Shown: positions 21,690-52,265 of the stretch, in pieces
Numbering within the stretch: the first letter of the stretch is position 1
Layout of the letters: the number at the start of each line of letters is the position of its first letter
The notes under the pieces: model-generated
What the model saw: the letters and a program-made list of their open reading frames with translations, nothing else
The model's database searches: none
What the model was told of the DNA's origin: nothing
IMG/VR virus record: IMGVR_UViG_3300049491_000465
Location: 1 to 64,000 of that record
Strand: one strand, 5' to 3'
Source: a virus
DNA length: 64,000 bases
Translations under genes and position numbers: made by a program

Positions 21690-22442
21690 ATGAGCGACAA
21701 TTTCAATAATCCGGCATATACTGTCAACATTAGTGTTGATCCGAGCTTGAGAGCCCTTAATGATAACTCTGTCAATCTCACATGTAACGATGGTAGTTCA
21801 ATAAATTTCCAGGCAAGTTCAGTTGAAGAAGTTGGTTCTGGAAAATATTCTTCGGTAAAAAATGTTGCCGCAAGAATAGCAAGAAATGTTAAAGGAAAAG
21901 AGTTTGACATTTACGATATCGCAGAATGGTGTGGTGAATGTGAGACTGATGAAATTGGCATGTATGAAGGTTTTGCTAAGTATCGCAATGTACCAATACA
22001 GGTCAAAAATAATAAAGGGTATGTCCCTTGCAATGTGTACCGGTTATTAAGTGTTCACAGAAATAAATGTTCTGTTGCTAAATACGACTGGGATGGTGCA
22101 TTTCTTCGATTCAACTTTGATGATCCAGGAACGATGAATAGTGAATACACTGTTTACATCGATTACCTTGGTGTGAAAGTTGACAGTGAAGGATTGCCAA
22201 TGATCTTAGATGGACATCAAGAAGCTTGCTTCTGGTACTGCATGACTAAGATCTATTTCGAAGATTATATGAATGGCCTTACTCCGGAAAATAGATTCAT
22301 GTTTCTCCAGGATCGTCTTGGTCATTATGTAAGTAAAGCAAAAACTTCATTCAGATATGTCACAAGAGATGATATGAATGAGATCCAGAGAATCATGCAT
22401 AATCTGGTTCCTAAAGTGAAAATGTCAAGAAATGTAGGGTAA
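21690..22442 (+). CDS. Putative tail tubular/ring protein
   Basis: The 250-residue protein has a first helical block (residues ~45-70), a beta core with CNVYRLLSVHRNKCSV, a strand YTVYIDYLGVKVDSEGLP and a helical end with HQEACFWYCMTKIYFEDYMNG. This order, strand-rich core, a GLP turn and an amphipathic helix rich in aromatic residues, is like ring or tail tubular proteins of crAss-like phages. Its stop overlaps the next ATG, coupling it to the SET-fusion gene. Confidence 0.5.
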   Translation: MSDNFNNPAYTVNISVDPSLRALNDNSVNLTCNDGSSINFQASSVEEVGSGKYSSVKNVAARIARNVKGKEFDIYDIAEWCGECETDEIGMYEGFAKYRNVPIQVKNNKGYVPCNVYRLLSVHRNKCSVAKYDWDGAFLRFNFDDPGTMNSEYTVYIDYLGVKVDSEGLPMILDGHQEACFWYCMTKIYFEDYMNGLTPENRFMFLQDRLGHYVSKAKTSFRYVTRDDMNEIQRIMHNLVPKVKMSRNVG

Positions 22443-30988: not shown

Positions 30989-30995
30989 AATAATG

Positions 30996-31026
30996 TTGCT
31001 AAATAATTCGTTTTTAAGTAGATTTG
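30996..31026 (+). promoter_or_regulatory. Bacteroidota-type promoter before cargo and giant polymerase genes
   Basis: TTG at 30996-30998, a 20-nt spacer and TAGATTTG at 31019-31026 occupy the 55-nt gap before the gene at 31044, with a predicted start near 31032. It would drive the 648-residue protein and the 19-kb giant gene, and perhaps the receptor-binding genes to 57 kb. Confidence 0.65.
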
Positions 31027-31043
31027 ACAAAAAGAAATAGGTT

Positions 31044-33020: not shown

Positions 33021-36000
33021 ATGGCAGAAGATCAATTATCGAATGAAGCTCAAGACTTAGAGCTTCCTCAAGATCCTATTCAGGAAACATCTGTTCCGGA
33101 ATCATCTATTCCAGAGGCAGATCCTCCAGTTAAAAAATCATATTCAGTTCCAAAAGAGCATGTTGACTTTTATGGATTAACATCCATATATGGAAATTCT
33201 GATGCTGATGTTTTTGAAATGCAAAAAACAAAACCTCAGAAGATATTATCCATGATGCCGAAGGAAGAGGCTTTCAAACATTATTCTGAAGAGGCTAAAC
33301 GAATGGGTCTTGATTGGACTCCAGAGAAATTCGAACAAGATTATTCTTTTCGTGAAAAACAATATGCTAATTATAAAAAAGGCGTGTTTGATCATGGTAC
33401 TGGATTTGACCATACATTCAATAGAAGTTGGTCGAATCTTTTCGCAGACATGATATCTCCATACGAATTCAATCCATCAAGTGCATGGGTAAAAGTCAAT
33501 CCTCTTGATACTCAATTTATACATGAAGACGGAGAGCTTAAACGTGTAAAAACAAAAGATGAATCCATGTATGATCTTGGGTTTGTTTTGACTGATATTC
33601 AAGGTGATAAAGTAAAAAACGTATATGGTGATTACGTTAAAAACGAAAGGAAATATAAAGAAATAGAGATCGGTGGAAGAAAAATGAGAGTTCTCGATCT
33701 TGAAGCTCATAAAGATGATTTCTTTAATACTTCAAGAAACAACCCTGGTCCTGAAGGGAATACTGTTCTTGTTGCTTCTGAACTTCCAGACGGAACTCCA
33801 GCTTGGAAAGAAGAGACCATCGGTAAAATATCCGGTAAAGTTCATAGTGATGAAGTTGCCAGTGTTTACGGGCCAAGATCAATGAGACAATCATGGCATG
33901 AAAATCTATGGATGGCTTCACTTCCAAATGCAGCAGCTTCTATTCAAACATCTATTGTCGGTTTTGCTGATTATATTAAAGATGCTTTTGGATATGGAAA
34001 TGTTTATCTAAAAAATATGACTGGCGGTATTGGATCGACAGAATCCATTAGTGCGTTATATCAGGCTGGAACACCAGACTGGTTAGATAAAGCAGATAAA
34101 GAGTATAGGGATCATGCTGCTTGGATGAAGCCTAAAGCACCAGAGAATGTTCGTGGTGCTGGTGCTTTTGATAGTGCTCAATCTTTCGCTTGGAGCGGAG
34201 GGGCTGTTGCTGGTGAATTAATTAAAATGATAGCAGCAAGAAACTTCTCTTCATGGGCTGGAAAAACAGTTGGCATGACTCAGATGGGTGCTGCTAAACT
34301 TGGAGGATACATGGGTTCTGGAACCATGGCTATTTCTGCTGCTGATCAATTTAAGCAATCAATGATTGATAATGGTATATCTGAGGATAATCAATTCCTT
34401 CTGTATGGTCCAGCATTAGTTTCTTCATTTTTTGTTGAACGACTTGGCGGTAACATCCTTGATGATGGACTCAAATCATTCTATGCTAAACAGAATGTTA
34501 AAAAATATGTTGATGAAGGGATTCAGGAACAAGTTAAATTGTTCGGATTAAAATCTGCTTCTGAAATGTCAAAAGAACAAGTTAGATCAACTGGTAAAGT
34601 TGTATGGAATAAGATTTTCGATGCAAGTAAGTCGATGGGTGCTTTAGGTGTTAAGGCCGCTGGTGTTGCTGAGAAATATGCCCCTATATCTATTAAAGCT
34701 GCATGGGAGGAAGGAATGGAAGAAGCTGTTGAAGGAAGGATTTATACTGCTTTAGAAACTATTCACGATATGCATCAGGCTCATGATGCAAGAATGGGTA
34801 AAGATCTTGATCGATACACATATTCTTCATCTCCAGATGAAAAGAATTTTTATGAGGTAGACCGTCTTACTGGAATCAAAAGAAAGATTAGTTCTGAAAC
34901 ATACGAAAAGATGTCTTCAGCTCAAAAGATTAAGCCTGGAAACGGAATGTTCGGAGAGTATAATCCTGAGCTTGGTCTTATTTCTAACTGGACAAATAGA
35001 GCTACCGAAGGTCTTGTTGAAGACTTTGTTCTTGGTGCTTTTGCTGGTGGATTAATGACTGGTGCTGGAAAGCTTACTAATGGAAAAGATGCTCAAAAAG
35101 AAAAAACTCTTCAAGATTATGTTGTCCGTGGAAATGGCGATATAATGAGAAGTAAGTTTGCAGAGATGCATGAGAAGGGTCTTTTTGGACCAACAGACAT
35201 AAACACTCAAGATAAAGTTCATAACCCTCAAGATGAGAATTCTTTAAGTCTTAATGACATGGGTTATCAAACTGCTTTGAAAGAACTTGAAGAAGCTGAA
35301 TTAACTTTTAAGTTAACTGGACTTGAAGGAGATGCTCTTAAAGAAATGATGGAGTCTGAATACGGACATTCTCTTCTGAAGGAGGCTTATAACAATGTGG
35401 GCAAACAAAGAGATCTTCAGTCTGAAATAGATGATATTAATAAAGAGATGTCTGAAACAACAGACCCTCAATTAATCAAGAATCTTCAAGAAAAAATTAC
35501 TGATAAAACAAGGTTAAAGGAAGACTTGAATATTCAGTTGGGAGAGATCAGATCTGGAGATCGTATGATTCAAAGTGTTTCTGATTACGCTATAAAAGAT
35601 TGGAGCTCACAAAACAATACTGGTATCATCGATCCTAATGGAAATAAAGTAACTCCTGGTATAGCAGAATTGAAAAACGTAAGTGATCGTTACGATTCTA
35701 AGAAAGCTGCTGAGATTGAAAAAATAAATGAAGCGAAATCAAAAAGAGTACAGCTTGAAAATGAGGTCGGTTCTTTTTCTAAATCAAAAATAGATCCATT
35801 AAGTGCTGAATCAAATGTTTTTGAAAAGATCTCTGATATTCAGATAAAAGCTTCTGAAGTTGGTTTATCTGAATCCGGAACTAAATCAATGATGGATAAA
35901 CTTCAAGGTATTCGAAAAGATATTTTGAGAGGTATCGATCAATTTTTTACAGCGGAACAAATAACTGAAGCAGAAACGTCTCCTGATGAAGAAGCATTAA

Positions 36001-39000
36001 TGACTATGGCTAAATCTGGAATAGCTGGTTCTGATGCTGAAAAGATTGCTAAAACTTATGATGATCTTGATAGATCAATTAAGTCATTCAATGTTGATAA
36101 GAAGCCGGAAATAAAAAAAGATGACTTTGTTCAATGGACTCAATCTGGTCAATCACAATTTGATCAACCCAGAAAAGTTACGAAGATTTCTGATGACGGT
36201 GAATTTGGATTTGTAGAAGGATCTGATACTGGAATTCCTATTTCTCAATTACATGATCCAAATTACACAGGGGGTCGTGTTCGTGGATCTATTCCTGAAT
36301 CTTTTGATGAATCTACATTTAAAAGAAACTTCTACGACACTTATATTGATACTCAAGGAAATGAGGTTAGTATCAATCAAACAATGTCAGATCTCGCAAG
36401 TAGAAAAATGAATAGTGAAGATGAGAAGACTATTGAACTTTTGAATCAAGCTATTTCAAATAATGATTACCTGGCAAATGTTAATCACAATGTTTTAAAG
36501 GATCTTTCAAGCAGTAAAGATATTAATCTTGGTAAATACAAGCCTTCAGATGAGTCTATCTTAAATGATGATGAGTATAAAGCTGTAATAAATGATCTTG
36601 CAGATAAAAAGAATAGACTTAGAGATCTTTCTGAAGTTCAAAAAAAGGATGCTAATAACAAAAAGAATAGAGAGGGAAAGCTTCGTTATAACGATTACAA
36701 AATGCGTAATGACATTCTTGTTCTCGCATCTAATGTTGAGCATATTTCTCTTGATTCAAGAAACGAAATAGCAAGATTAAAAGCTCAGATATCAGAAGCT
36801 TTAGATTTGATTAAAGATAGTTATAGTAGTGAAAAGCAATACAAAAGAGAATATCTTGATCAAGTCGATCCGTTACTTGTAAAGGCTGAAACTATTCTTC
36901 ATTATGAATTTAATGGAGATAATAGAATTGAAATAATTGAAGGTATAACTGCTCAGTTTAAGCAGTATAAAGGATATGGTCCTTACAAGTCTCAAATCTA
37001 TCACAACGCAAGTGAGTTTGTAATGCATGATTTTGAAAATGTTTTTGATTACAGTTCTTTTAGTGAACAGGTGGTTAACAACGGAAAATCTAAAGGGGCT
37101 GCTTTTATGGCTAACATTCAGTTTGCCAATACATATTTCACAAATCATCTTCAAACTATTGATCGATTGGATCCTAAAAGATTCTTTGATTTTTATGCGA
37201 ATTCTGTTGCTGGATTAGATTTAGAATCAGGTCAAGTTCCTTCTTATGAACAGATTAAATCGATCTATCATACTACTGCATTCATGTCAAATCAGAAGAC
37301 TGATCTTCTTTGGAAGGTTCAGGATATTCTCACTGGTGCAAAGAATGAGAAGTCAAAGGAGATGCATTTCAATAGAGCATTATTTCTTCGTGGATTTGCT
37401 GGAACCGGAAAGACATCTTTAGTAATTAAATATGCTTCGAACATATTCTCTGATATGAACCAGAGAGATTTGGTTATAGATGTTGTTGCACCAAGTACAG
37501 AGCTTCAAAAATCATTGAGTTCAAATCTTGTTTCCTTTAGATCAAATTCTACTAATCCGAGTATGGATTATTATTCATTAGTTGATCACATCTTAAACCC
37601 TAAGTCAACTATTGACAAAACAGATTTGATTATAATTGATGAGGCATCTAATTTAAGCAAGAGTCAATTGAAAGATCTTAGAACTGCATTGAGCAAGTCT
37701 CGTGCAAGCAAAAGACTTTCTGTAATATTCCTTGGTGATCAGTCTCAAATGACATCTGTAAACAGTACAGTGAATGAGCTTGTTGCTGTTGAGAGAATCA
37801 TGGAAAGAACAATGCCTACAACTGAGGTATTTCGTTCTGGTGCTGCTGACATTAGTAATCTTCAGAACTCATTCCGTAGCTCAACATTCCAGAGAAAAGA
37901 AGCGATTCTTCCGAAAGGAACTTACGATAAGGAAAAGAACAATGGTCTTCATTATTTTGGAGGTACAAAAAAAGAAATGTACGATCAATTCATTTCTGAC
38001 TTAAACGACGGTGGTGACTTTAAAAAGAACAACACAGCATTGATTGTTTACAAGAAATCTGATCGTGAAGCTGCTATGAATTATGTTCGTAAAGCTTTAA
38101 AGGATGGATCTTTTGATCTTGATTCAAAAATCAAAACAATTGAAGAGGGTGAATTCTCTGCTCAAGGTCTTGGGTATGGAAGAATTTATGTAGCAATTGA
38201 TCAAGCTGATGCTGCTCATTTGTATAACCCAGCAATGCTCACTGCTATTTCCAGAGCAAAAAGAATTGATGATGAACATAATGGTTTTGCTTCAGTTCTT
38301 TCCACAAGAGGATTTAGCCAGGAAGGATCTCCTCTTATTGTTGAAACAAAAACTGCTTCTGCTGAAGATATTGAACGTCACAAATCTTGGGTATCATCTA
38401 TCATAGGTATGCCTGTTGAGTCTTCTGACAAAGCACAAAAAGAAGCTTCATCTACAATTTCTGATGTTACCAGTGCAAACTTCAATTCATTAAAATCGAA
38501 CCTTAGTTCCATTTTAGGAAAAGGAAAAATTGAATTTACTGAAGGAGGCTTTATTGCTGATGGATTAAGATTCAGATACAAAATAAAAAACAAACCGGTT
38601 CAATCTGTAACTCAAAAATTATCTTCAGCAACATCTCAATCTGAGACAGATAGAACATTGGATCCTCATGCTAAAAGAGGAAATGCTGTTCATAGAATTG
38701 TTGAAGCACATTTGTTAAAGCAACAAAAGAAAGGTGGTAAACTGTTTACCAAACAAGATATTGATGCCATCAAAGGGTATGTGAAGAGTTATAACGATCA
38801 GGTAGCTAAATGGAATGAATTGGCTAAACCTGAATCAAGACTTCAAACTATCGATCTTAATAACGATGAGGCTACATTTGAGACTAATAAGTTTATCCAG
38901 GATGTGATAAGTAATGTTGCAATTCCTATTGCAAACAAACTTAATCAAGGAGGTAAGTATTCTATTCCGGAATCTGTTATTGGTATTTATTACAATGACA

Positions 39001-42000
39001 TTGCTGGAACCATTGATATTATCGATCATGTTGGAATGGATGGTGACATCCCTGTCGTTGACATTCTCGACATCAAAACACTCACTCCTTCAGCATACAA
39101 GTTTTTTGGTGATGGAAATGTTGAATCAAAATTAAAGCTTCCAATAATCACTTCTCCGACTGGTGAAACTTATGCGGCAAGCGGATTGAATAAGGCTCTT
39201 TCTCAATTAGCAACATACAAAGCTATGCTTGAGAATGGAGATACTGAGACTGGTTTTAAACCAATGAAAGTTCGTAACGTAACAATCATTAAATCAAGTT
39301 TGACCGGTGCAAATGAAGTGTCTTCAATTGTGAATGATGATTTTGTAACATACGATACTGAATCTTCTGACTTCAAGAAGTTTAAGGATTACGGTGATAT
39401 GACTGTAAGTAATGGTGTTATTCTTCAAAACAAGAATACTCGTAACTATGATCCAAGTGATGAAGCATTAGGTTCTTTGATAACGACTCCTGAAGGAAGT
39501 TCCGTTGAAGTTACTGGAAGCTTTAAAGATGTTGATGGAAATCAGTCTTATGAATTAAACAACGACATCAACAATCCTGTGTCTTCTGATAAGTTTTCCG
39601 AATTGGAGTTAAATAACATTTCTAAGGAAATATCCGAAGATCCAACAATGATGAATAGCGAGAGAGTTTACAAACGATCTGCTGTAAGTCATTCAAATGG
39701 AAACACTTTCTCTTTCTCTACCGCTTCAACTTCTGTTGATAATGGTAAGCCTGGATATGCAAATGATCACTTTAAATTCAAATCTGAATTCATGAAGGTC
39801 ATTGCTCCAAAGATGAATTTCGGTTCTCCAAATGCACCGAAAGTAAATATGGTATTCCATCCGGAGCTTCAGTTATTAAATGACAAAGGTGAACTACAAA
39901 TGTTCAAGAATGTTGTTGCTTCATACATATCTGAAGATTCTATTTCTGATATAGTTAAAGCCGCTAAGACTTTGCCTTGGGCTACTGGAATGACAGATGC
40001 TCAGATCATGAAGGAAATAAAAGATCGTAACTATTTGTTGCTTTCAACTCTTCCTCATCCTGATTCTAATTTCGGTAAAACAGAGCGTGATATCGATTAT
40101 ACCGATCAGGCACAAGTTCAGAAATTGATTGAAAGAATCAAGAATGGATTTACTACCGATGGTGTTGCTGATAAGTTCAAACCACAATTAGTTCAATACC
40201 ATACAGATCTTGTTTCATACAGATCTTTAGGTGCTAAGAATCCAGGTGAAGTATTTGCTACTGTTAAGCTCAAAGGTCTTTCTAATCCATCTGTAATCTA
40301 TGATGGAAAGCAAAGATCAATGGACTCTCTTCTTACAGGTTTAAGTGCTAAAGGATTCAAAATTGGAAAACCATACTTTGGATCAAAACTTTACCAAAAG
40401 GTAGATGCTAATGGTAAGGTTTCGAATATTGCATCTTGGGCCGTTGATGTATGGAGAGTTTCTCCTTCAGTTGATTCTTCAAGAATAATTTTAAGAACCG
40501 GTGAATTTGATGATAATCATTACAGTGAGTTAAAGAAAAATATTAGTGATTTAAGATCTAATAAAGCATTGACTCATGGTGAGATAAATCAATCATTGGC
40601 AATGGGCTTTATTCTTCAGAATAGATCATTCTTGATTGATCCAACAACCGGAAAATTAACAGAAGAGATTCCTGGATTATCAAACTTTATAAAAGTTGAT
40701 GGCCATACAATTGATCTTAATGTTGATGGTAAAAAAACAATTCCAGCATTAATCGATTCTTTATCAAAAGCTATTGACTTGTTGAATGGTTCAAGAAAAT
40801 CAAACAATAAAGTAGCCAAGAATTTACGTCAGTCAGTTCCTTTTGTGATTGGAGATAATAACATGCGTGTTATCCCTTCCGGAATGGAATCTAAGCTGTT
40901 CACATCTGCATCTGATGTTCATTCCTTTGGAATTGAATTAGGAATGTCTGTCGTTAAAACAGAATCAGAAACAGGTGTTTATGGAGGTATGACATCTCCA
41001 TCTAAAAGCGATGAGGATTTATTGAAAAACATGGGTATTATTGATCCTAATCCTAATAAGGGTGGTATAGCATTCATGGAAGATATTGAGGAAGAACCAG
41101 GCATTCCATTGAGCGGCCATGAGTCTTCTTCAGATCCGGATTCCACACCAGTAAATGAGAAGGATCGTACATTCTACGATTTTGCTACAAGATACTTTGG
41201 TGACATTCGTATTATGAATGAAATCAAAAAAGATGTTTCAAGAATACTGATCCAGAATTCAAATTACAATCGTGATTTGAATACTCCTACAATGTCTAAT
41301 ACTGACATGCTCGCAAAAGCTTGGGACCATTATTCAAGATTGTCTGCGTTGATCGCAAAAGATTACAGTTCTATTGATGTGAAGAGTGGTAACAATCATT
41401 ACACTAATCTTTCAGAAATCTCTGGAGATACGGCACATCTTTTATATGAGGATAAATCGGCATTTTCAAGATACTTCAATTATGCAGTAGGATCTGATCA
41501 AGAGTTATTTTTTGCTATTGTTGATCGTGCACTACCAAACTTGAATATCAAGAAAATGAATAAGCTTGATATTGGAGAAGCTCTTGCTTTAAGAATGAAC
41601 TCTTTCCTTGATCGTGATGCTGAAGGTGTTACAGAAGAAGAAAAGGATATCATGTCTGCCAATGAAAACAGTCAGACGAGTGTAATGGATAGTATTAATT
41701 CCAGAGCATTCACTGATACTCTTTCCGGGTTTGTTCATCTAATGAAAAACCATGTTAAGCTAAAGGAATACTCAATTGATCCTAAAACAGGTGATCTTGT
41801 TGGTTCTGAAACTGGAGGATATATTAATCCTAAAACTATCGAAAAATCACTTGTTGATTCAGCTCAAACATCTTCTCCATTAAAAGGAGACTTGATGGAA
41901 CAATGGGTTAATAATTTCTTAGAAATTGCTAATCGATCTGGAGTTGGTTCTCCGACGTACAATCACTTAATGAGTTTTCATGACGATTTCTTTGGAGATC

Positions 42001-45000
42001 AAATGTCCCATAAATATCTTCGTGACAATGCTATTAGAACCGGAGGAGAAAGTTCTTTGATAGAAATTAAGACTGGTGCTAATCCTGAGATTATTAAAGC
42101 AAAAGCAAAAGCTTCAAGCGACCTGCTTAGTGCATTATACTCTCATATGGTATCTGTTTCCAGTAAGAAGTACATAAAGATGAATTTGAATTCTTCTGGT
42201 GATAAAATTTCCAGAAAGATAAAAACTCAGTCTCTTGCTGTTGGGGTTCAGGTTGTTCAGGATATTAAATCAAGAATGAACAATGCGTTATTCTCAATGT
42301 CAGAGAATGGTATTGAAATTAATCCAAAGGTTTCTGAGCTTATCACTGAGGGTCAAAACCAAAGATACAGGATCAATTCAAGTGGTGTATTCGATTTGGC
42401 TGGAGGTAAAGCTACTAAGCTGATCGGTTTCACAACTCAAAATGGAAAAATAGTAGACTTTGTTATTCCAGATGGAATTGCCAGTCAGGACATTAAAGAT
42501 TTGCTGAATATAATCAACCTTAAAGGTGATGTTGTCTACACAACAACAATCAAAACCTATATGGGTAATGAATCAGACAGTAATCCGGATCCTGAAAAAA
42601 GAAGAGATCGAAGCAAGATTGCTGAGATTGTCGGTATGTTCATGTTGACAACTAAGAATGCTGTTAATCCATCTCCTTCAGAAACATCTCTTTTAGATGC
42701 TTATTACAAGGAAAACGGATATACAAAAGACTCTCTTGATGATTTGAATGATGACGGAACAGTTGACATGGAGAAAACTGGAACAGACATCTACAAGCCA
42801 ACAGATCTTTATCGATTGATTGAGAATCTTGCAAAAGTTCAATCTGAAATCGGATTGAATAATCATGCTGATTTCTTCTACAATGTAAATGGAGATAAGG
42901 TTTACAAGCATACTAATGGGAATACATTCTTGAGATTATTCAGTAATGCTGATGTTGGTGATAAACTTCCTACATCAAACATTAAAGAATACTATAAGGA
43001 ATTCGTTCTTTCTGATCAGAACATTGAAAACATCATCTACAATCCAAATGTCGCAAGAGCAAATGATGGTAAGATTAAAGTTCTTAACACATTAATGGAT
43101 CCGAATTCAGATCATCATATCATGGATGCTTATGTTGTTGACGGTACGGAGGGTAACTTCAAGTCTGTTCAACAGGGTAAATCAATGACCGATATGGATT
43201 ATGTAGATTTCTCCATAAACGGAATGTTTGTTGACGATATTTTGAGTGGTAAAAAGATTCAGAATATTAGACTTCCTTATCATCAGATATCAAACAAGTC
43301 AGCTTATGTTGCAGAACATAATTTCGGAAGCAATAAATTTACCCATACAGAAAATGGTATAATTGCTGATCGTGCATGGATAAATGAAAATATTAGTAAG
43401 ATATTTTTCTACCATAATAGTGCCAGAAGAGTCTCTTATCTAAGATGGAGAAACGCATTGGTATCCATGGGTTTTAATGTTGACAGAACAACATTTGAAG
43501 GATGGATGACTGATCCTCAATCTTTTAAAAACACTTTATCCATGGCTTCTCAAAGTCTTGGAAAAGTTAATAAAGGTGCGAGCTTTAACGATTTCATTAC
43601 AGGTAGTACTGAACTTGTTGAAAATCGTGACTACAAAATAGGTAGAGATGGATCTGTTCTTCCGGGTAACGCTCCAATGATGACTATTGACAGTGTTTAC
43701 AATTGGAAAAACTTCAATAAATTAAAAGAGGCCAGTGCTGGTGTTTCAGGACTTACTGTTGATGAATTGATCGATTCTTTATTCTACAAAAGACATATTG
43801 ATACAGCTTCACATTTCTCAAGAAATGGATTCAAACTTGATCAAAGATTAAATAATAACAACTGGTTGTTAAAGCAATCTGATAAGAAGAATGCAAAAGG
43901 ATTCAGTATTTGGAAAGTCAATCCTACTCTTGAATCTTATTTGTACGCTTGGCATATTGCTGATCACAACTTGAGTCAGCTCACAATGGGAGACGCTTCT
44001 CAGTACAAAGATATTTCTGATGTAATTAAAAGAAGCTCTGGTCCATTCGCTCAATCATGGAGACCAGATACAAGTTCACCTAATGGAATTGGTAAGTTCT
44101 CCAATGCTGTTATAATTGAGGATATTCAAGGTGAAACATACGAACAACTTGAAACGATATTTGGTCAACCAGGAAATCATGTTGAAACAGATGGTCTTGG
44201 TATAATCAATCCTATTTCTTTGACGATAATGAAAAATTCTTACGGTGGTGAGGAGCTTGGAGTTATTGGAAAAGGAATGCTTAAACCGGTTTACTTTAAA
44301 CCAGACATGAATACCAATGATGCTGTTTATTTTAAATATGCATTATTACCATTAACACAACAAGTTCTTGAGAACTCTTCAATTGCAAGAGAGACCTTCA
44401 GAAAGATGGTTACTCCAGAAATGTTCGAGATGTGGCAATCTGGTAAGACATTCGATGAAATAGCTGATTACGTCGTTGAAAATGGATTACAGCAAGACAT
44501 GTTAATGCAAGCTGTTTTCAAGTCTGGTAACAAAACCGGTAATCGTGGTGTTCAAAAGTTCGATTCTCCGGAGTGGACTACATCTGTTGAGGTTGATAAT
44601 GACTTCTTTGGTATTCAGTTGAATCCTTCTCAAGATGTTGAGAGTACTGAGAATATGGCTGGTCCATCTCAGCTTAATGCAACTCTTGGAATAGGAAGTC
44701 AAAACACTGAAAGAGTTAGTGCTTTAAATGAATTGAAAGCCGGGATTGCTGTCGATGCTTTAGCTAAAATGAAAGGCGACTTTTCTACCGATGGTAATTT
44801 TGACCCTAAAAAGTTTGAAGATTATCTTCGTAAGATTGGCCAGAAATCATCTGAGAAAACTGGTGAGATAACTAAGTTCGCTGAGATGTTGTACGATGAT
44901 AAGGTTGATTTGAACATACCTACTCAACGAACAAAACTTATTCAAATGTATATGAACCGAATTACATCAGACGTAATTAGTCCAAGATGGAATGGTGTTC

Positions 45001-48000
45001 GTATGTCTCAGGCTCCAGGATTTATGTTTCCTATTTACATGGATGTTGATGGTAATCCATACATGGAGAATGAATACAAAAAATACTTTGGAGAACCGGG
45101 TCCTGAATCAATGTCAAGATCACTTCAACCAATGAAGTTCTATAAGGATGAGAAGTTCATAAATGAAATAACAAGTCAGGAAGAATTCGCTTCACTAATG
45201 GAGACCGGAGAGGTCTTTGTTAAACCAGGAGATGTTATTGTTCCATTTAGTTATTTCGAGAAATTTGGATTGAAAGAATACATTGATGCTGATCCTTCTT
45301 TCAGTTTGAATGATGTATTTATGGTTCAGCTTGAAGATGGTAATCTTGCTAATGTAAGATCCATGAACGAAGATGAAACATCAATTCTAATTGATCGTGC
45401 TTTTGATTCTGCTAAAGACAAAAAAGAAGAAGGACTTGATCAAGATGCTATTACTTTCCTTCAAAAGAAATTCAGTTCAGCCAGTGCAGCGAAAGCATTC
45501 ATAAAAGAATTCAGAGAGGCATTACAGGTTATACCGGATCGTATCCCAACATCATCTACTTCTTTTGGGTGGATAGGTGAGATTACCGGTTGGATAAATG
45601 ACAATGGAAACACTGTTTTCACATCAGCTCAAAAGAATATCCTTGATGGTGGTGACTACGATATTGACCAATTGAATATCTACTTCAAGTTCCTTGATTC
45701 AAATGGTAAAATTGTAAAAGGAGACTCAAAACAAGGTAAGATCAATCAAATGTTTGATTTAATTACTGAGTACTACAACGATCCTAAAAACGCTGAGATA
45801 TTCATGAAGCGTTTGAGTATGGAAAAACTTGAAAGCCAGGTTGAAGAGATAAAAAGAACTCAAACTAAATTCAAAGGACATCATAATGACTTTGGTACAA
45901 ACATTTACTATTACGATAACATCAAGCAAGGAGATTCATTAATTGGTATTTTCGCTAACATCGTAAAAACATTCTCGTATTTATCTCATGTTTCAACAAA
46001 AGCAGATGGTCTGTCTTCTAAAGTTGAAATCAATTCTAATTCATTGAACTCATCAGGTGAATACATCTCAAATGTTCTTGAGAGATTCTTGAATGCTGCA
46101 ATGGATAATGTGAAAGAGTCTATACTTGGATACCTTGGGGCCACAGAAGATGCAGGAAATCTTATTGGTGCTGCTGCAATCAAAGGGATGGATGAGATTG
46201 AAATTGCAAACTTGTTGAAAAACGATGTTGTTGTTGATGTCTTCAGAAAGATGAAAAACAGCAAGCGTGTAACAAGTGCAAAAAAATCAAACATACTTGA
46301 TGTTATTGATTCTAAAATTGAAGACATAACAAAAAGAAATTCTATTGATTTAAGAGAAGATCTCGAAAAGCAACTCAAAGAATTAAAAGGTAAGATTGGT
46401 GCTCCAAGTGAGGATGAAGGAATTGATGATGCCTATGTTGCTGAATTCGATAGACTTCAGGAAATGATTAATGACGCTGATAATTTTGAGGTTGTAAAAC
46501 AAGACCAGCTTGACGTTCTTTATCGATTAAAAGATCTCGCTTATTTTGGTGAATCAATCTCAAGACTAAATTCAATCATTCGAATTGATAGTGTAGGAGC
46601 TCCTGTATTTGATTATCACATTGAGAAACAAATCAGAGATGTAGAATACAATCTTGGAATGCCTTTAGATGATTTCCTTGCCGGAAAAACCGGATCAAGT
46701 GATTGGTATAAATCAAGAAAAACATACTTAACTTTTGATGATTCACAAAAACTTGAAGAGAGAGAACCGGCAATAAGAAGCTACCTTGATCTACAAAAAA
46801 TAACAAAAGAGTTACCTCACATCATGGCTTATCTTGAAGCTTTGAATGAGGGTCGTAACAATATGAAAAATACATTCATCAGAAATAGTAAGTTGATTCA
46901 GGATTTATCTGACAGCTTCCTTGGTAAGATGAAAATGGATTGGTTCAGATCTGAGAGATCTTATTATTCATTCCATAATGAAGTTGATAATTTCTTTATC
47001 GCTACATTCTTTGGAACTCATTTCAAAGGAAAGATGTTCCAGTCTCAATTTGGATTAACAAAAGGATCCGAGAGTGTAAACATTTCAACGAGAGAGGGTC
47101 GTTATCAATTTGGAATTGAATTCCCTACTTCTGTAATTGAAGAGGCGGATAGAATAAGAAGAAAACCAAAAGAAGAGCTTACACCAAGAGAATTAGATCT
47201 TGTTGAAAACACTTTCTTGAATTCATTAACTGTAAACTCAACTCCAAGTGGAGACTTTCTGGAGTTCAAGAACAGTTGGAAATTAACTGAGGATGATTTC
47301 CGTGATCTTCGTGCTTCATTTAAGAAGTTACCTGCTGCTTGGAAAGAGAAGTTCTATGTTTATCAATTAGCAAAGGATGGGTTCAACTTTACAAAAGGAG
47401 GTCTTTATGAGGCTATGGACAATGAATTGTTCAGAATGTATTCTACGTTCCTGGATAAAGTAAAAGGAGCTGTTGACACATACGGAACCGACAAGGAAAC
47501 TCCATTTGATTTCATTGACTCCAATGGTGTTCTTGTTCAGAAAACTCTTTCTGAGATATTTGATTCCAATTTCCTTGAAGATGTTGGTGCTATGTCTGAT
47601 GAGATGAATCTACTTCCTTTTGAACCAAGAGAAGGTGGTTTTGAACCTCATCTACAACCCGATCAACATAAGGTCCGTGAAAAGAATGGAAGCTTTACTG
47701 TTTCAAAGGTTAAGAAGAAAGGTCTTGATTCTACGTTCCAACCATCTTCTAAGAAGACCTTTAATGGATATGATCCTTTGAATTCTGTTCTTACTACAAT
47801 GGATGTTATCCGTAAGATATCAAAGGATACTTACAAGAAATTGAAAAGTGGAGCTGAAGCAACGATCAGGTTTAATGGAAAGGTTCAATACAAATTGAAA
47901 GACGCTTACATTCCGGATGGAACTCTTGTTAGAATAAAAAGTGCTACTTCAAATTCAATAACTGTTCTTCCTATTGTAAGTACAAATCCAATGAATGTTT

Positions 48001-51000
48001 ACCAATCAAAAACTGGTAAGGAGGATTTGTTGAATTCAATTGTTGAAAACTCTAAAAATGATTTGAATTCTAAATTGGCAAAATCAATTTTGGAAATGAC
48101 TGATCCTAAATTCTTACAAAGAGGTTTGGTTAATTTCACCAATGAAGATGCTGATGCTACATTCAATGATCAAAGAGAGAAAGGAAATAAAACTCCTGGA
48201 TACTGGGATCAGGCAAGCCGCACAATAGGTATGAATATGTCTCAAATCAGAGATATAAACAAACTTGAACATGTGTTCCTTCATGAGATGATCCATGACA
48301 TTACATTTAATGCAATGGAAATCACAGATCAGGAAGCTGATTCTTTAGGTGAAAAAGGTCAACGAATCAAAGAATTCAAGGAAAACATCGAGAAGATCTA
48401 CCAGAAAGCTAAGTTGGCTTATACTGACAGCGGTGAGAAACACTACGGAATGAAAGATGCTACGGAATTCCTTTCTGAGGCTATCTCAAACCCTGAATTC
48501 CAAAGATTCTTGTCTAATCAAGAGATTGAAGAATCTGTTGGAACAAGTTTTATCGACAAGGTAAAAGATCTTTACAGAGCTGTTATTGGATCAATAAGAA
48601 ACTTACTTGGTATATCTGAGAAAGATGCTCCATACACCATGCTTGATCAGGTTGTTGGTCTTGTTATTCGTCATGCTAAAGCTGGTGATTACGATTTCAA
48701 AACTTCATCAAATACATCTGAAGGAAAGGTATTCTTCTCTGAAGATTCTAAACCGGAAACCGAAGTGAATGAAACGAAAGACATTATCAATAGTCTTCAA
48801 CCGGACGGATTCTCTAAGACTTATACTCAATATCAAGAAGAGCAGTTAGTTACTGACATCTACAATAGTATCGATCCAAAAACCGGTATCTACTACTACA
48901 ATGGTGATAAGTTCTACTTCAAGAGTAAGGAAGGTGAAATGATGGATGAGCTTTCAGCTAAGAATAAGATCAAAAATGAAGTTGTTCCAAAATTCACTGA
49001 GTTCGAAACCAACTATAAGAATAGTGTTATTGGATGGTTGAACAATGGTGCTCAAGTTGACGGTTCATTGCCAGCTACATTCTTCCCTAAGAAAGGTGGC
49101 ACTTCACGTTACAGCCAGGGAACTCTTGGTGAGATGAGAAGACTTATCGATCATGATGTTAACGATTTCTATGTTCGATATAGTGAATTGAAAAACAATG
49201 AGGAATTCAAGGATATACCTTACATAGCTGAGTTTGAAGGATTTGATCCTATTGTTTCGATTCACAAATCAATCGACGGATCAAACATGTCAATCTCTAT
49301 TTTCGATGCAACATCGTTGAGGCTGAACAAAAAAGGTATCCTTGAAGGCAATATCTTCAAGAAGCATATTGCTGATGATTACGAAGCCAGAAACAAAGGT
49401 GTTACCCTTGGTAATAACGAAGGTGATGTTCGTAGATTACTTCTTGGTCTTCAGGTAATGGCTATGAAAAAAGCTAATCCAGATCTTAAAATCAAACACG
49501 TTGGAGTTCTTGGTGTAAGTAATAAATCAATTGATTCTACATGGGTATTCATGGAAGATTTCGTATCCAATGTAAAGGCTATGAATGGAATTGAGGCAAT
49601 CATGAAAACCCTTCCAGAGTCAATCAAGGATATTGTAAGTGATGATTCATTGCACAAACAGGATTATGATCAGCCATGGATATTTATGCTTCGTAGAAAG
49701 TTCCAGCAACGAGTACAAGATCTTGATGGAATTGAAAACCAAGAATTCAATATCAAGAAAATCAATGATTCAGTGAGTCAAATTGATGCTTATTTGAATG
49801 GTCAAGGAAGTAAAGATGAGGTTCTTAATATGATGATTCATCGAATGGAAGAGATCCAGAATACTTATCACAAAGACGAAGAATTATTGAATGATAAAGA
49901 ATACATCTACCTGTCGAATACTATTCGAGAGATGTCTGCTGTTGCTTCATTTGATAAAAATGGAACCAAGGATCTTGATACTATAAAATCATTCTTAACT
50001 CCAACTCCAGATATCAGTCATGATATTGTCAACTGGGCACAAGAACAGATATTCAAATCAATGAGAATTGTTCAGGATAAAGTTCGTGATTTCCAGAATG
50101 ATAAGTTCGTTCCTATTTTAAAAGACTTCAACAATAGATACTTCAAGAAATATCCGGAACAAAGAGCTATGGATTATTTACAGGATCTTTCCGGTAAAAA
50201 GTTTATGCCTTTATTCAAAACCAGAAAGGTTAAAGATCAATCTGGAAATGATATCGAAGTTAACTCAATGGAGATTCATTGGGACATGAATGATGCCGAA
50301 ACAAAAGAAGCAATCAGAACAAATAAAATATCTACTAAAGATGTTGAGTTTGGTAAGTTCATTGTTGATACTCTTGAAGAGCAAATGATCGAGAATATTC
50401 TCCACTCTAAACGTCATGATAAAGGTTTCAAAAAAGAAGATGCCAAGAAAGATCTTGATCGTAAATGGAGAAGAGGAATGATTCCAGTGATGAGTTCTTC
50501 TGTCAATGAAATGTTAATGAAGAAGGATGCTAAAAGTGCCAAGGCTGCTTATGATAAATTCTTCAGACAATTGACTAATCTTGACGATATCTACGATGAG
50601 GTTGACAAGCAAAAATTAAAAGATACCAAACGTCAAAAGATCCTCAAAGAAATGACTGATTTCTTCATGAATCAAATTGGTCTTGACTCTGATATTTATG
50701 GTTCTGATGCCAGAATGAAAATGATGGGATTAAGAAATGACATTACCGGTCCTATCTTGATGGATTCAAACACTAATGAGAACTTGAGCACAAACCTTGA
50801 GTTGATCACGATGTATATGGTGTCATCAAGTGAGCGTAAACGAGTATTTGACAAGAAGGTTCTTCCTTACGTTAATGCTGCACAAACAATGCTTCATAAC
50901 CCTCAATTATCAGGTCTTGATGGTGATCAGCAGGTAACTAAATCTTATTTCCAGAATTATATCAATTCAGTATTGAAAGGAATGCCTGAGACTACTGATT

Positions 51001-52265
51001 CTAAGATTCTTGGAGTTAATGTTGATGCTGCTATTTCTTCTGTTGTTCAACTTGCTTCATTCAATGGTCTTGCATTAAATGTTCCGGTAGCAGCTTCGTC
51101 TGCATTAATGAATGCCGGTCAATTAATGAACAGTGCAATAGCAAATGATATGGCTACAAATGGTCTTTACGGAAAGGCTGAAGCTATGAAGGCTATTAAA
51201 ATGTTCGGAACTGTTGAGGGTAGAAAGTTCATTGAATCAATTATGGATATGTACAAGGTTGCTGATCGTACAGAAAGAGACATGATGCATAATCCAAGAA
51301 TGAAAGTGACAAACAAGAATATCTTCACTTCCCATCATGCTTACTGGATGAACTGGTACACGGATTATAATGTTCGTGGTATTGTGGCTGCTGCTCAAAT
51401 GATTAAAGACGGTTCTATCGCTGCTTATACTTTAAATAAAAAGACAGGCAAACTTGAGTATGATGAATCAAAAGACCCTAACTTTAAGGGAGAAACTGGT
51501 GAACATTTCAAAAACCACATCAAACAAAGGTTAATCGAAGAGGGTGTTATGAATTCCATGGACGAAAAAATGCCAAGAGGATACGATCACAAGATGGCTT
51601 CTCAATTGAAGCATCTTGCTGACAAACATGTTGTTGGTAACTTGGATGATGCAACAAAAGGTCGATTTGGCCGTACTGTTGCAGCTAAACCATTCATGCA
51701 GTTCATCTCCTGGCTACCTACTAAAATGGTGAATTATTTTGGTAGCACTAAAGCCTCTGCTGTTGGTGGGAAATATGTCACCAACAAGAATGAGCATGGT
51801 GAGGCTGAAACTGTATGGGAACAAACTGTTCAAGAAGGCATCTTTACTACTTTGAAAAACATCCATAGTGAGTTAAGAGAGAATAAATACAAATCAATGC
51901 GTTCTTGGAGTGAAATGAAACCTCATGAAAGATACAATGTCACAAAACTTGGTATCGATTTGATTTCATTCACTGTACTTTACGGATTGTATGCTGGGCT
52001 TACCGGTGACTGGGATGATGAAGAAGGTGATCAAGCAATGGTAGAGGATTCAAGATTAATGAAAGTATTCAAGTATTCAGCAATGGATTATCTTGCTTTC
52101 AATCCATTGAAGATTACAGAGAGTTTATTAACTGTTCCAGTACTTGAACAAGCAGAAAGATTATCAGGAATTTTCATTGGAGATTTTAGTGGAGTAGAAA
52201 GATCACTACCTTTGAGTTCAACAGTAAGATCTTTCTCTGAAGTTTTAAGTGACGAAGAAAAATAA
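33021..52265 (+). CDS. Giant virion polyprotein: helicase, nuclease, RNA polymerase, peptidase
   Basis: This single ORF has 6414 codons (about 0.7 MDa). Visible modules, in order: a hydrophobic Ala/Gly-rich region (~385-450) and an EEGMEEAVEG motif (563-572), as in ejected internal proteins. An SF1 helicase follows, with Walker A GFAGTGKT (1458-1465), IIDEAS (Asp 1540), LGDQ (~1571-1574) and AISRAK (Arg 1745). Next is a PD-(D/E)XK nuclease of RecB/Cas4 type (GNAVHRIVE with H1891, GTIDIID with D1999, LDIKT with D2017/K2019). An RNA polymerase-like core covers about 3970-4300, with RIPTSSTS and GGDYDIDQLNIY giving DxDxD at 4212-4216, the crAss-like virion polymerase signature. A zinc peptidase motif HEMIH lies at 5088-5092, with EFLSEAISNPEFQ downstream. 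Near the C terminus is FISWLPTKMVNYF and a hydrophobic stretch (~6310). It is probably injected with DNA. Polymerase and helicase activities are inferred from motifs. Confidence 0.85.
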   Translation: MAEDQLSNEAQDLELPQDPIQETSVPESSIPEADPPVKKSYSVPKEHVDFYGLTSIYGNSDADVFEMQKTKPQKILSMMPKEEAFKHYSEEAKRMGLDWTPEKFEQDYSFREKQYANYKKGVFDHGTGFDHTFNRSWSNLFADMISPYEFNPSSAWVKVNPLDTQFIHEDGELKRVKTKDESMYDLGFVLTDIQGDKVKNVYGDYVKNERKYKEIEIGGRKMRVLDLEAHKDDFFNTSRNNPGPEGNTVLVASELPDGTPAWKEETIGKISGKVHSDEVASVYGPRSMRQSWHENLWMASLPNAAASIQTSIVGFADYIKDAFGYGNVYLKNMTGGIGSTESISALYQAGTPDWLDKADKEYRDHAAWMKPKAPENVRGAGAFDSAQSFAWSGGAVAGELIKMIAARNFSSWAGKTVGMTQMGAAKLGGYMGSGTMAISAADQFKQSMIDNGISEDNQFLLYGPALVSSFFVERLGGNILDDGLKSFYAKQNVKKYVDEGIQEQVKLFGLKSASEMSKEQVRSTGKVVWNKIFDASKSMGALGVKAAGVAEKYAPISIKAAWEEGMEEAVEGRIYTALETIHDMHQAHDARMGKDLDRYTYSSSPDEKNFYEVDRLTGIKRKISSETYEKMSSAQKIKPGNGMFGEYNPELGLISNWTNRATEGLVEDFVLGAFAGGLMTGAGKLTNGKDAQKEKTLQDYVVRGNGDIMRSKFAEMHEKGLFGPTDINTQDKVHNPQDENSLSLNDMGYQTALKELEEAELTFKLTGLEGDALKEMMESEYGHSLLKEAYNNVGKQRDLQSEIDDINKEMSETTDPQLIKNLQEKITDKTRLKEDLNIQLGEIRSGDRMIQSVSDYAIKDWSSQNNTGIIDPNGNKVTPGIAELKNVSDRYDSKKAAEIEKINEAKSKRVQLENEVGSFSKSKIDPLSAESNVFEKISDIQIKASEVGLSESGTKSMMDKLQGIRKDILRGIDQFFTAEQITEAETSPDEEALMTMAKSGIAGSDAEKIAKTYDDLDRSIKSFNVDKKPEIKKDDFVQWTQSGQSQFDQPRKVTKISDDGEFGFVEGSDTGIPISQLHDPNYTGGRVRGSIPESFDESTFKRNFYDTYIDTQGNEVSINQTMSDLASRKMNSEDEKTIELLNQAISNNDYLANVNHNVLKDLSSSKDINLGKYKPSDESILNDDEYKAVINDLADKKNRLRDLSEVQKKDANNKKNREGKLRYNDYKMRNDILVLASNVEHISLDSRNEIARLKAQISEALDLIKDSYSSEKQYKREYLDQVDPLLVKAETILHYEFNGDNRIEIIEGITAQFKQYKGYGPYKSQIYHNASEFVMHDFENVFDYSSFSEQVVNNGKSKGAAFMANIQFANTYFTNHLQTIDRLDPKRFFDFYANSVAGLDLESGQVPSYEQIKSIYHTTAFMSNQKTDLLWKVQDILTGAKNEKSKEMHFNRALFLRGFAGTGKTSLVIKYASNIFSDMNQRDLVIDVVAPSTELQKSLSSNLVSFRSNSTNPSMDYYSLVDHILNPKSTIDKTDLIIIDEASNLSKSQLKDLRTALSKSRASKRLSVIFLGDQSQMTSVNSTVNELVAVERIMERTMPTTEVFRSGAADISNLQNSFRSSTFQRKEAILPKGTYDKEKNNGLHYFGGTKKEMYDQFISDLNDGGDFKKNNTALIVYKKSDREAAMNYVRKALKDGSFDLDSKIKTIEEGEFSAQGLGYGRIYVAIDQADAAHLYNPAMLTAISRAKRIDDEHNGFASVLSTRGFSQEGSPLIVETKTASAEDIERHKSWVSSIIGMPVESSDKAQKEASSTISDVTSANFNSLKSNLSSILGKGKIEFTEGGFIADGLRFRYKIKNKPVQSVTQKLSSATSQSETDRTLDPHAKRGNAVHRIVEAHLLKQQKKGGKLFTKQDIDAIKGYVKSYNDQVAKWNELAKPESRLQTIDLNNDEATFETNKFIQDVISNVAIPIANKLNQGGKYSIPESVIGIYYNDIAGTIDIIDHVGMDGDIPVVDILDIKTLTPSAYKFFGDGNVESKLKLPIITSPTGETYAASGLNKALSQLATYKAMLENGDTETGFKPMKVRNVTIIKSSLTGANEVSSIVNDDFVTYDTESSDFKKFKDYGDMTVSNGVILQNKNTRNYDPSDEALGSLITTPEGSSVEVTGSFKDVDGNQSYELNNDINNPVSSDKFSELELNNISKEISEDPTMMNSERVYKRSAVSHSNGNTFSFSTASTSVDNGKPGYANDHFKFKSEFMKVIAPKMNFGSPNAPKVNMVFHPELQLLNDKGELQMFKNVVASYISEDSISDIVKAAKTLPWATGMTDAQIMKEIKDRNYLLLSTLPHPDSNFGKTERDIDYTDQAQVQKLIERIKNGFTTDGVADKFKPQLVQYHTDLVSYRSLGAKNPGEVFATVKLKGLSNPSVIYDGKQRSMDSLLTGLSAKGFKIGKPYFGSKLYQKVDANGKVSNIASWAVDVWRVSPSVDSSRIILRTGEFDDNHYSELKKNISDLRSNKALTHGEINQSLAMGFILQNRSFLIDPTTGKLTEEIPGLSNFIKVDGHTIDLNVDGKKTIPALIDSLSKAIDLLNGSRKSNNKVAKNLRQSVPFVIGDNNMRVIPSGMESKLFTSASDVHSFGIELGMSVVKTESETGVYGGMTSPSKSDEDLLKNMGIIDPNPNKGGIAFMEDIEEEPGIPLSGHESSSDPDSTPVNEKDRTFYDFATRYFGDIRIMNEIKKDVSRILIQNSNYNRDLNTPTMSNTDMLAKAWDHYSRLSALIAKDYSSIDVKSGNNHYTNLSEISGDTAHLLYEDKSAFSRYFNYAVGSDQELFFAIVDRALPNLNIKKMNKLDIGEALALRMNSFLDRDAEGVTEEEKDIMSANENSQTSVMDSINSRAFTDTLSGFVHLMKNHVKLKEYSIDPKTGDLVGSETGGYINPKTIEKSLVDSAQTSSPLKGDLMEQWVNNFLEIANRSGVGSPTYNHLMSFHDDFFGDQMSHKYLRDNAIRTGGESSLIEIKTGANPEIIKAKAKASSDLLSALYSHMVSVSSKKYIKMNLNSSGDKISRKIKTQSLAVGVQVVQDIKSRMNNALFSMSENGIEINPKVSELITEGQNQRYRINSSGVFDLAGGKATKLIGFTTQNGKIVDFVIPDGIASQDIKDLLNIINLKGDVVYTTTIKTYMGNESDSNPDPEKRRDRSKIAEIVGMFMLTTKNAVNPSPSETSLLDAYYKENGYTKDSLDDLNDDGTVDMEKTGTDIYKPTDLYRLIENLAKVQSEIGLNNHADFFYNVNGDKVYKHTNGNTFLRLFSNADVGDKLPTSNIKEYYKEFVLSDQNIENIIYNPNVARANDGKIKVLNTLMDPNSDHHIMDAYVVDGTEGNFKSVQQGKSMTDMDYVDFSINGMFVDDILSGKKIQNIRLPYHQISNKSAYVAEHNFGSNKFTHTENGIIADRAWINENISKIFFYHNSARRVSYLRWRNALVSMGFNVDRTTFEGWMTDPQSFKNTLSMASQSLGKVNKGASFNDFITGSTELVENRDYKIGRDGSVLPGNAPMMTIDSVYNWKNFNKLKEASAGVSGLTVDELIDSLFYKRHIDTASHFSRNGFKLDQRLNNNNWLLKQSDKKNAKGFSIWKVNPTLESYLYAWHIADHNLSQLTMGDASQYKDISDVIKRSSGPFAQSWRPDTSSPNGIGKFSNAVIIEDIQGETYEQLETIFGQPGNHVETDGLGIINPISLTIMKNSYGGEELGVIGKGMLKPVYFKPDMNTNDAVYFKYALLPLTQQVLENSSIARETFRKMVTPEMFEMWQSGKTFDEIADYVVENGLQQDMLMQAVFKSGNKTGNRGVQKFDSPEWTTSVEVDNDFFGIQLNPSQDVESTENMAGPSQLNATLGIGSQNTERVSALNELKAGIAVDALAKMKGDFSTDGNFDPKKFEDYLRKIGQKSSEKTGEITKFAEMLYDDKVDLNIPTQRTKLIQMYMNRITSDVISPRWNGVRMSQAPGFMFPIYMDVDGNPYMENEYKKYFGEPGPESMSRSLQPMKFYKDEKFINEITSQEEFASLMETGEVFVKPGDVIVPFSYFEKFGLKEYIDADPSFSLNDVFMVQLEDGNLANVRSMNEDETSILIDRAFDSAKDKKEEGLDQDAITFLQKKFSSASAAKAFIKEFREALQVIPDRIPTSSTSFGWIGEITGWINDNGNTVFTSAQKNILDGGDYDIDQLNIYFKFLDSNGKIVKGDSKQGKINQMFDLITEYYNDPKNAEIFMKRLSMEKLESQVEEIKRTQTKFKGHHNDFGTNIYYYDNIKQGDSLIGIFANIVKTFSYLSHVSTKADGLSSKVEINSNSLNSSGEYISNVLERFLNAAMDNVKESILGYLGATEDAGNLIGAAAIKGMDEIEIANLLKNDVVVDVFRKMKNSKRVTSAKKSNILDVIDSKIEDITKRNSIDLREDLEKQLKELKGKIGAPSEDEGIDDAYVAEFDRLQEMINDADNFEVVKQDQLDVLYRLKDLAYFGESISRLNSIIRIDSVGAPVFDYHIEKQIRDVEYNLGMPLDDFLAGKTGSSDWYKSRKTYLTFDDSQKLEEREPAIRSYLDLQKITKELPHIMAYLEALNEGRNNMKNTFIRNSKLIQDLSDSFLGKMKMDWFRSERSYYSFHNEVDNFFIATFFGTHFKGKMFQSQFGLTKGSESVNISTREGRYQFGIEFPTSVIEEADRIRRKPKEELTPRELDLVENTFLNSLTVNSTPSGDFLEFKNSWKLTEDDFRDLRASFKKLPAAWKEKFYVYQLAKDGFNFTKGGLYEAMDNELFRMYSTFLDKVKGAVDTYGTDKETPFDFIDSNGVLVQKTLSEIFDSNFLEDVGAMSDEMNLLPFEPREGGFEPHLQPDQHKVREKNGSFTVSKVKKKGLDSTFQPSSKKTFNGYDPLNSVLTTMDVIRKISKDTYKKLKSGAEATIRFNGKVQYKLKDAYIPDGTLVRIKSATSNSITVLPIVSTNPMNVYQSKTGKEDLLNSIVENSKNDLNSKLAKSILEMTDPKFLQRGLVNFTNEDADATFNDQREKGNKTPGYWDQASRTIGMNMSQIRDINKLEHVFLHEMIHDITFNAMEITDQEADSLGEKGQRIKEFKENIEKIYQKAKLAYTDSGEKHYGMKDATEFLSEAISNPEFQRFLSNQEIEESVGTSFIDKVKDLYRAVIGSIRNLLGISEKDAPYTMLDQVVGLVIRHAKAGDYDFKTSSNTSEGKVFFSEDSKPETEVNETKDIINSLQPDGFSKTYTQYQEEQLVTDIYNSIDPKTGIYYYNGDKFYFKSKEGEMMDELSAKNKIKNEVVPKFTEFETNYKNSVIGWLNNGAQVDGSLPATFFPKKGGTSRYSQGTLGEMRRLIDHDVNDFYVRYSELKNNEEFKDIPYIAEFEGFDPIVSIHKSIDGSNMSISIFDATSLRLNKKGILEGNIFKKHIADDYEARNKGVTLGNNEGDVRRLLLGLQVMAMKKANPDLKIKHVGVLGVSNKSIDSTWVFMEDFVSNVKAMNGIEAIMKTLPESIKDIVSDDSLHKQDYDQPWIFMLRRKFQQRVQDLDGIENQEFNIKKINDSVSQIDAYLNGQGSKDEVLNMMIHRMEEIQNTYHKDEELLNDKEYIYLSNTIREMSAVASFDKNGTKDLDTIKSFLTPTPDISHDIVNWAQEQIFKSMRIVQDKVRDFQNDKFVPILKDFNNRYFKKYPEQRAMDYLQDLSGKKFMPLFKTRKVKDQSGNDIEVNSMEIHWDMNDAETKEAIRTNKISTKDVEFGKFIVDTLEEQMIENILHSKRHDKGFKKEDAKKDLDRKWRRGMIPVMSSSVNEMLMKKDAKSAKAAYDKFFRQLTNLDDIYDEVDKQKLKDTKRQKILKEMTDFFMNQIGLDSDIYGSDARMKMMGLRNDITGPILMDSNTNENLSTNLELITMYMVSSSERKRVFDKKVLPYVNAAQTMLHNPQLSGLDGDQQVTKSYFQNYINSVLKGMPETTDSKILGVNVDAAISSVVQLASFNGLALNVPVAASSALMNAGQLMNSAIANDMATNGLYGKAEAMKAIKMFGTVEGRKFIESIMDMYKVADRTERDMMHNPRMKVTNKNIFTSHHAYWMNWYTDYNVRGIVAAAQMIKDGSIAAYTLNKKTGKLEYDESKDPNFKGETGEHFKNHIKQRLIEEGVMNSMDEKMPRGYDHKMASQLKHLADKHVVGNLDDATKGRFGRTVAAKPFMQFISWLPTKMVNYFGSTKASAVGGKYVTNKNEHGEAETVWEQTVQEGIFTTLKNIHSELRENKYKSMRSWSEMKPHERYNVTKLGIDLISFTVLYGLYAGLTGDWDDEEGDQAMVEDSRLMKVFKYSAMDYLAFNPLKITESLLTVPVLEQAERLSGIFIGDFSGVERSLPLSSTVRSFSEVLSDEEK

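Follow-up and report, generated by a model that had tools for sequence, protein, structure and literature searches.

What kind of protein is encoded by a single frame that fills almost a quarter of a viral record, and is that frame real? The window analysed here, a stretch of 64,000 nucleotides from IMG/VR record IMGVR_UViG_3300049491_000465, contains an open reading frame (33021..52265, plus strand; hereafter the giant ORF) that begins with ATG and encodes 6414 aa under translation table 11 with no internal stops. Its product has a computed mass of 722 kDa, and the frame accounts for 24.7% of the 77,884-base record. A first-pass annotation, made from the letters alone, had described it as a single chain of extreme length with SF1 helicase motifs (~1458-1745), a RecB/Cas4-type nuclease (~1891-2019), an RNA polymerase core with a DxDxD motif (4212-4216) and a HEMIH peptidase motif (5088-5092), about half of the length being without a domain. 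We demonstrate that the frame is kept open in two divergent viruses, that its parts are homologous, in the same order, to the proteins of the crassvirus transcription block, and that its catalytic motifs are intact. The giant ORF very probably encodes a crassvirus virion RNA polymerase and its two partner proteins as one polypeptide.

The giant frame is intact and is conserved in a divergent virus

At the base composition of the giant ORF, 6414 open codons would arise by chance with a computed probability of ~10^-224; across the same interval, the remaining five frames contain 305-854 stops. An IMG/VR scan with the polymerase region found a relative, IMGVR_UViG_3300025093_000019 (79.3-kb record), whose contig carries a colinear homologue of 6829 aa in a single frame (7779-28268, minus strand). 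The two proteins align over their full length at ~38% identity, ranging from 31 to 56% per 200-residue block with a coverage of at least 0.84 in each block. The biggest insertion in the homologue (~167 aa) follows residue 2238, and smaller ones at 4889 and 4927 mark the joint between the polymerase and the third protein (near 4825-5055) as variable. Substitutions between the two rank codon position 2 < 1 < 3 in all 500-codon blocks, so that protein-level selection also acts on those regions of the giant ORF in which no domain was recognised.

Since both known joints separate genes in some relatives, we considered whether two or three adjacent genes had been merged by an assembly or base-calling artefact through missed stops or indels, a frameshift or assembly error being the objection that the first-pass annotation itself had named. 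However, an independent contig, only ~38% identical, has this frame undivided as well and colinear through the two joints, and the substitution pattern is of the coding type in every block. The giant ORF is therefore not an assembly accident, the probability that we leave to an artefact is negligible, and the single 6414-residue frame stands as first described.

The window represents a divergent lineage within or next to Crassvirales

The structural genes of the window gave strong profile matches: the capsid protein to Crass_capsid (E 1.8e-39), ring proteins 1 and 2 at E 3.6e-23 and E 1.7e-13, TerL to phrog_6681 (E 3.9e-94) and the portal to phrog_6547 (E 1.2e-87). These capsid, portal, terminase and ring genes, together with a muzzle gene (Table 1), show that the window lies within Crassvirales or next to it. 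Because identity to named crassviruses is at best ~29-33% for TerL and ~25-29% for the portal, and is spread over several groups, the virus appears from these genes to represent a divergent lineage. Seven IMG/VR scans with different segments of the giant ORF reached the one relative only (six scans) or nothing (one scan), a genome-contig scan for relatives of the giant ORF found none, and no annotated phage was matched by tblastn with the polymerase segment or the helicase segment. The two divergent homologues define a crassvirus lineage that has no close relatives in the collections we searched.

The order of ring proteins, muzzle, further genes and giant ORF is alike in the window and in the relative. 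As in known crassviruses, the giant ORF comes after the muzzle gene and the cargo genes and shares its strand with the structural module. The two genes directly 5' of it (491 and 648 aa) occupy the position of cargo genes gp45 and gp46 of crAss001 and have homologues at the matching place in the relative; direct BLAST comparison matched neither protein to a known cargo protein.

Other parts of the window were also of note. Between ring protein 1 and the muzzle (22442-24568) lies a gene for a 708-aa protein with an N-terminal SET-like domain (Pfam SET E 2.5e-5, NHSDNPN...GDEITVDY), which is 41% kept over 173 aligned columns in a 1012-aa protein of the relative; the remainder of the 708-aa protein carries the motif GGS(L/I)YxMMxY three times. 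Shortly 3' of the giant ORF (52643-54517), a 624-aa protein shows weak BNR/sortilin-like repeats and is possibly a host-contact protein. From ~57.4 kb onward, all ORFs of at least 100 aa (57375-63451) are on the minus strand, facing the structural module, and the GC skew becomes negative.

The giant ORF is colinear with the crassvirus transcription block

Profiles made from the two homologues, the giant ORF and its 6829-aa relative, were compared by hhalign with the block proteins of reference genomes, using column-reversed profiles as controls; no match to a reversed profile exceeded the reporting threshold. We found that matches to the first block protein, the polymerase and the third protein follow one another colinearly along the giant ORF (Table 1). 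The first protein was matched at E 2e-6 over 53 columns (residues 273-330) and at E 1e-4 over a longer stretch of 311 columns. The polymerase core matched 16 crAss RNA polymerases at E 9.2e-18 over 656 columns, and the giant ORF has in common with this family the GDxxxYK region (3657), KSGNKTG (3834) and DYDID (4212), as well as LIGIFAN and LNAAMDN. The catalytic positions of DYDID are kept in the 6829-aa homologue. The weaker match to the C-terminal part of the polymerase protein reached E 1.6e-4 over 269 columns, with none in the reversed control, and that to the gp49 family E 4.2e-17 over 401 columns. The RNA polymerase core first proposed around the DxDxD motif is thus supported by profile homology, as a polymerase of the crAss type.

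Outside the crAss profiles, the polymerase part had no Pfam or PDB sequence match; the sole match of its profile to the PDB (E 0.22) was spurious. N4-type polymerase models matched no segment of the giant ORF in Pfam or PHROG. The stretch around 3970-4300, where the first-pass annotation had asked for a structural match to a DPBB polymerase, falls within an AlphaFold model of residues 3560-4559 that was built from two sequences only, had a mean pLDDT of 33.6 and was not fold-searchable. Residues ~690-1440, 2150-3640 and 5230-5915 (~2,900 residues) matched none of the profiles tested, and residues 1-1450, 2100-3700 and the nuclease gave nothing above controls against subfamily profiles of the N-terminal and polymerase proteins. 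The half of the length first listed as lacking a domain thus becomes smaller, since parts of it match known block proteins. Weak MqsR, Mnd1 and PIF1-type Pfam matches fell below the cut-off and were set aside.

Table 1. Features of the giant ORF (residues of the 6414-aa product) and of its surroundings in the window
Feature	Residues	Window position	Strand	Basis
Crassvirus head/tail module (terminase, portal, capsid, ring proteins)		10256..22442	+	profile matches
Muzzle (tail) protein, 5' of the transcription block		24581..28495	+	Pfam crAss_MUZ E 7.6e-42
Two genes (491, 648 aa) directly 5' of the giant ORF		29513..32990	+	
First-block-protein N-terminal homology (crAss001 gp47; cr118_1 gp14 N part)	273-683	33837..35069	+	hhalign
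SF1 helicase, RecD/Dda-like	1451-1760	37371..38300	+	Pfam AAA_30 E 4.6e-12
RecB/Cas4-type PD-(D/E)XK nuclease motifs	1886-2066	38676..39218	+	
crAss virion RNA polymerase core	3644-4431	43950..46313	+	hhalign
DYDID, aligned to the crAss polymerase DxDxD metal-binding motif	4212-4216	45654..45668	+	
Polymerase-protein C-terminal part, weak match	4496-4823	46506..47489	+	
Zincin-like metallopeptidase (predicted)	5055-5222	48183..48686	+	homology to crAss zincins
Third block protein C-terminal part (crAss001 gp49 family)	5919-6365	50775..52115	+	

Helicase, nuclease and zincin motifs are intact

The SF1 helicase assignment was upheld by its Pfam match and by motifs I, II, III, V and VI, all of which are present in both homologues (in the giant ORF, GFAGTGKT at 1458, IIIDEAS at 1537, LGDQSQ at 1571, AQGLGYG at 1714 and TAISRAK at 1741); the region also matched RecD in the PDB at E 0.0025. 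A direct orthology with the helicases of cr118_1 and cr50_1 (E 1e-9) was not accepted, the cr118_1 helicase itself matching 1730 phage records that are largely Dda/RecD-like.

For the nuclease, the proposal stands as far as motifs go: GxxxH, GTxD, DxK and QxxxY occur in order (RGNAVH at 1886, AGTIDI at 1995, ILDIKT at 2015, QLATY at 2062), and the catalytic positions of both nuclease and helicase are kept in the 6829-aa homologue. Pfam did not bear it out, with no match even at E 10, and a PHROG exonuclease match was weak (E 0.017). An AlphaFold model of residues 1430-2150 was partly usable (pLDDT 46.9), and its nuclease stretch, with pLDDT mostly 50-78, showed the expected alpha-beta-beta-beta-alpha-beta order. 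A fold search with this model returned, among the matches listed, generic ATPases and helicases at TM ~0.1-0.2 and was discarded as evidence.

The HEMIH motif proved to lie in a region homologous to the third proteins of phi14:2 (gp76), cr4_1 and cr1_1 (hhalign E 2.3e-12). In gp76 the matching residues are 146-335; BLASTP to gp76 gave E 1e-10, and a SprT-like match had E 0.003. A candidate third ligand, E5153, lies within TEFLSEA at 5148, and the 6829-aa homologue has HEMLH followed downstream by EFVAEA. This region is thus predicted to be a zincin-like metallopeptidase homologous to known crAss zincins.

A proposed role for the fused chain and its alternatives

From the N to the C terminus, the chain would consist of a first block protein (gp47/gp78-like), an SF1 helicase and PD-(D/E)XK nuclease insert, a polymerase equivalent to phi14:2 gp77 (GenBank; g066 in RefSeq) and crAss001 gp50, and a zincin-bearing third protein (gp76/gp49-like). 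It would most likely be made late and packed in the capsid beside the portal, be threaded down the tail as infection begins, either before the DNA or together with it, and then refold in the host and transcribe early genes without the host polymerase. The fusion would fix the subunit ratio and deliver all parts together.

Packaging, injection and polymerase activity of the giant chain are suggested by its homologues. In crAss001, gp47, gp49 and gp50 were detected in virions by mass spectrometry, and it is through such virion homologues that an injected state may be proposed (PMC10172136; PMC6235969). Similarly, gp76-78 of phi14:2 are recorded as structural proteins detected by mass spectrometry, and the predicted phi14:2 vRNAP has had its RNA polymerase activity confirmed in vitro, according to a review (PMC10136315). 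The capsid cargo zone of crAss001 is estimated at ~5.1 MDa, and ejection has been proposed to occur via the tail, with constrictions under 50 Å (PMC10172136), so that the cargo would need to unfold partially. By simple arithmetic, seven 722-kDa chains would fit ~5.1 MDa if the capsid is similar. More speculatively, the helicase-nuclease might work on incoming or host DNA, and the zincin might cut the giant chain into working pieces.

If such cutting went to completion, the giant ORF would be a polyprotein, translated whole and cleaved, whether by its zincin or by a different protease, into at least three proteins equivalent to gp47, gp50 and gp49, so that the working parts are not fused. The chain does contain a zincin whose HExxH is followed downstream by EFxxEA, the joint between polymerase and third protein is variable and takes up insertions in the relative, and N4-like virion polymerases, like polyvalent proteins, have been proposed to be autoprocessed by such peptidases (PMC5512222). 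However, viruses that encode the proteins separately can have a homologous zincin too, as phi14:2 does in gp76; the zincin is therefore not there only to undo a fusion, and we consider a polyprotein possible but rather unlikely. It is more doubtful still that an injected AddAB/RecD-like module is the main point, destroying host DNA or blocking a host exonuclease, with the polymerase as a passenger. Intact SF1 and RecB-type motifs do adjoin, block proteins of cr118_1 and cr50_1 have a helicase too, and PD-(D/E)XK domains occur in some crAss transcription proteins (PMC7886860). Yet crassvirus blocks with no detected helicase retain the polymerase and its partners, which makes the polymerase the constant part, and membership of the nuclease family was assigned from motifs only. 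We give an equally small chance to a single injected 722-kDa chain whose helicase, nuclease and polymerase work in cis on the genome as it enters, before the zincin frees the parts; if true, DNA ends might for instance be unwound or trimmed and DNA be pulled in by transcription, and the chain would be a one-molecule takeover machine. A virion RNA polymerase fused to its two partners remains our preferred reading.

Comparison with known transcription blocks and giant virion proteins

We examined the transcription block in 16 crassvirus genomes (crAss001, phi14:2, DAC15, cr106_1, cr128_1, LMMB, crAss002, Rudgehvirus, cr3_1, cr107_1, cr118_1, cr50_1, cr60_1, cr4_1, cr1_1 and cr130_1), a sample rather than a census that leaves aside the Zeta and environmental groups, with the blocks of Azobacteroides phage ProJPt-Bp1 and MT835470 kept out of the mapping. 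The block consisted of two or three ORFs, and full fusion in one frame occurred in none of the 16. Whole-block totals were ~5,400-7,900 aa and the largest single ORF had 5801 aa (cr130_1); a review gives crAss polymerase genes as "up to ~6000 aa" (PMC10136315). The size of the giant ORF alone is therefore not extraordinary, and calling it extreme was an overstatement. What differs is that all three block proteins share one frame, with a helicase and a putative nuclease inside. The giant ORF carries the fusion of a known machine further and is not a new kind.

In Steigviridae the block is three ORFs. Those of phi14:2 (gp78, gp77 and gp76; 1797/2180/1421 aa) share with the giant ORF the order of N-terminal protein, polymerase and zincin protein and the DxDxD motif, but are separate, and gp78 and gp76 have no Pfam helicase. 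In PhiCrAss001 (2341/2412/1349 aa), gp47, gp50 and gp49 total 6102 aa, close to 6414, with gp50 matching the polymerase region and gp49 the C-terminal region, but the three ORFs lie on two strands. Intestiviridae (crAss002 gp32 + gp33, crAssphage LMMB) share the fusion of polymerase and third protein (about 4070-4245 aa), whereas their first protein (about 2000 aa) is separate and bears a zincin, and crAss002 has no Pfam helicase. Suoliviridae share instead the fusion of first protein and polymerase (4491-5801 aa) and keep the third protein (1386-2074 aa) separate, as in cr118_1 gp14 (4946 aa) + gp15 (1667 aa) and in cr130_1 gp79 + gp80 (2074 aa), which have in-frame TAG codons. Each joint of the giant ORF is thus already known singly, since Intestiviridae and Suoliviridae each close one.

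Two reference records showed further peculiarities. The cr130_1 block genes contain 74 (NC_055901.1, 5778-23183) and 31 (L039, 2554-8778) in-frame TAG codons, with neither TAA nor TGA inside them; the 5801- and 2074-aa proteins therefore require TAG to be read as an amino acid. Flavobacterium phage Fpv1 (KU599877.1), a record not filed under Crassvirales, has at 10491-28516 a 4401-aa ORF (GLDYDID, HEVIH) followed by a 1596-aa ORF, a pair that resembles the crAss transcription block.

The giant ORF completes a series in which the crassvirus transcription proteins come as three, two (joined either way) or one polypeptide. That the same protein set occurs in all these forms suggests that its parts work as one complex with fixed order and stoichiometry. 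This would be of help in predicting how the complex of crAss001 is built, its subunits being unresolved in the virion map. The SF1 helicase of the cr118_1 and cr50_1 blocks is C-terminal to the polymerase, whereas that of the giant ORF lies upstream of it; the module would thus have either moved or been acquired separately. This difference in position suggests that crassvirus cargo takes up and loses accessory enzymes.

Beyond crassviruses, polyvalent proteins and N4-like virion polymerases (PMC5512222) likewise combine many unlike enzyme domains with a zincin and are presumed to be injected, but N4-like polymerases belong to another polymerase family, the profile of the giant ORF being crAss-type. 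The 5002-aa fusion of P23-45 (PMC10770324) is also a giant virion protein with a polymerase homologous to cellular ones; in that long-tailed phage the polymerase is joined to the tape measure, whereas the giant ORF sits in a crassvirus cargo block.
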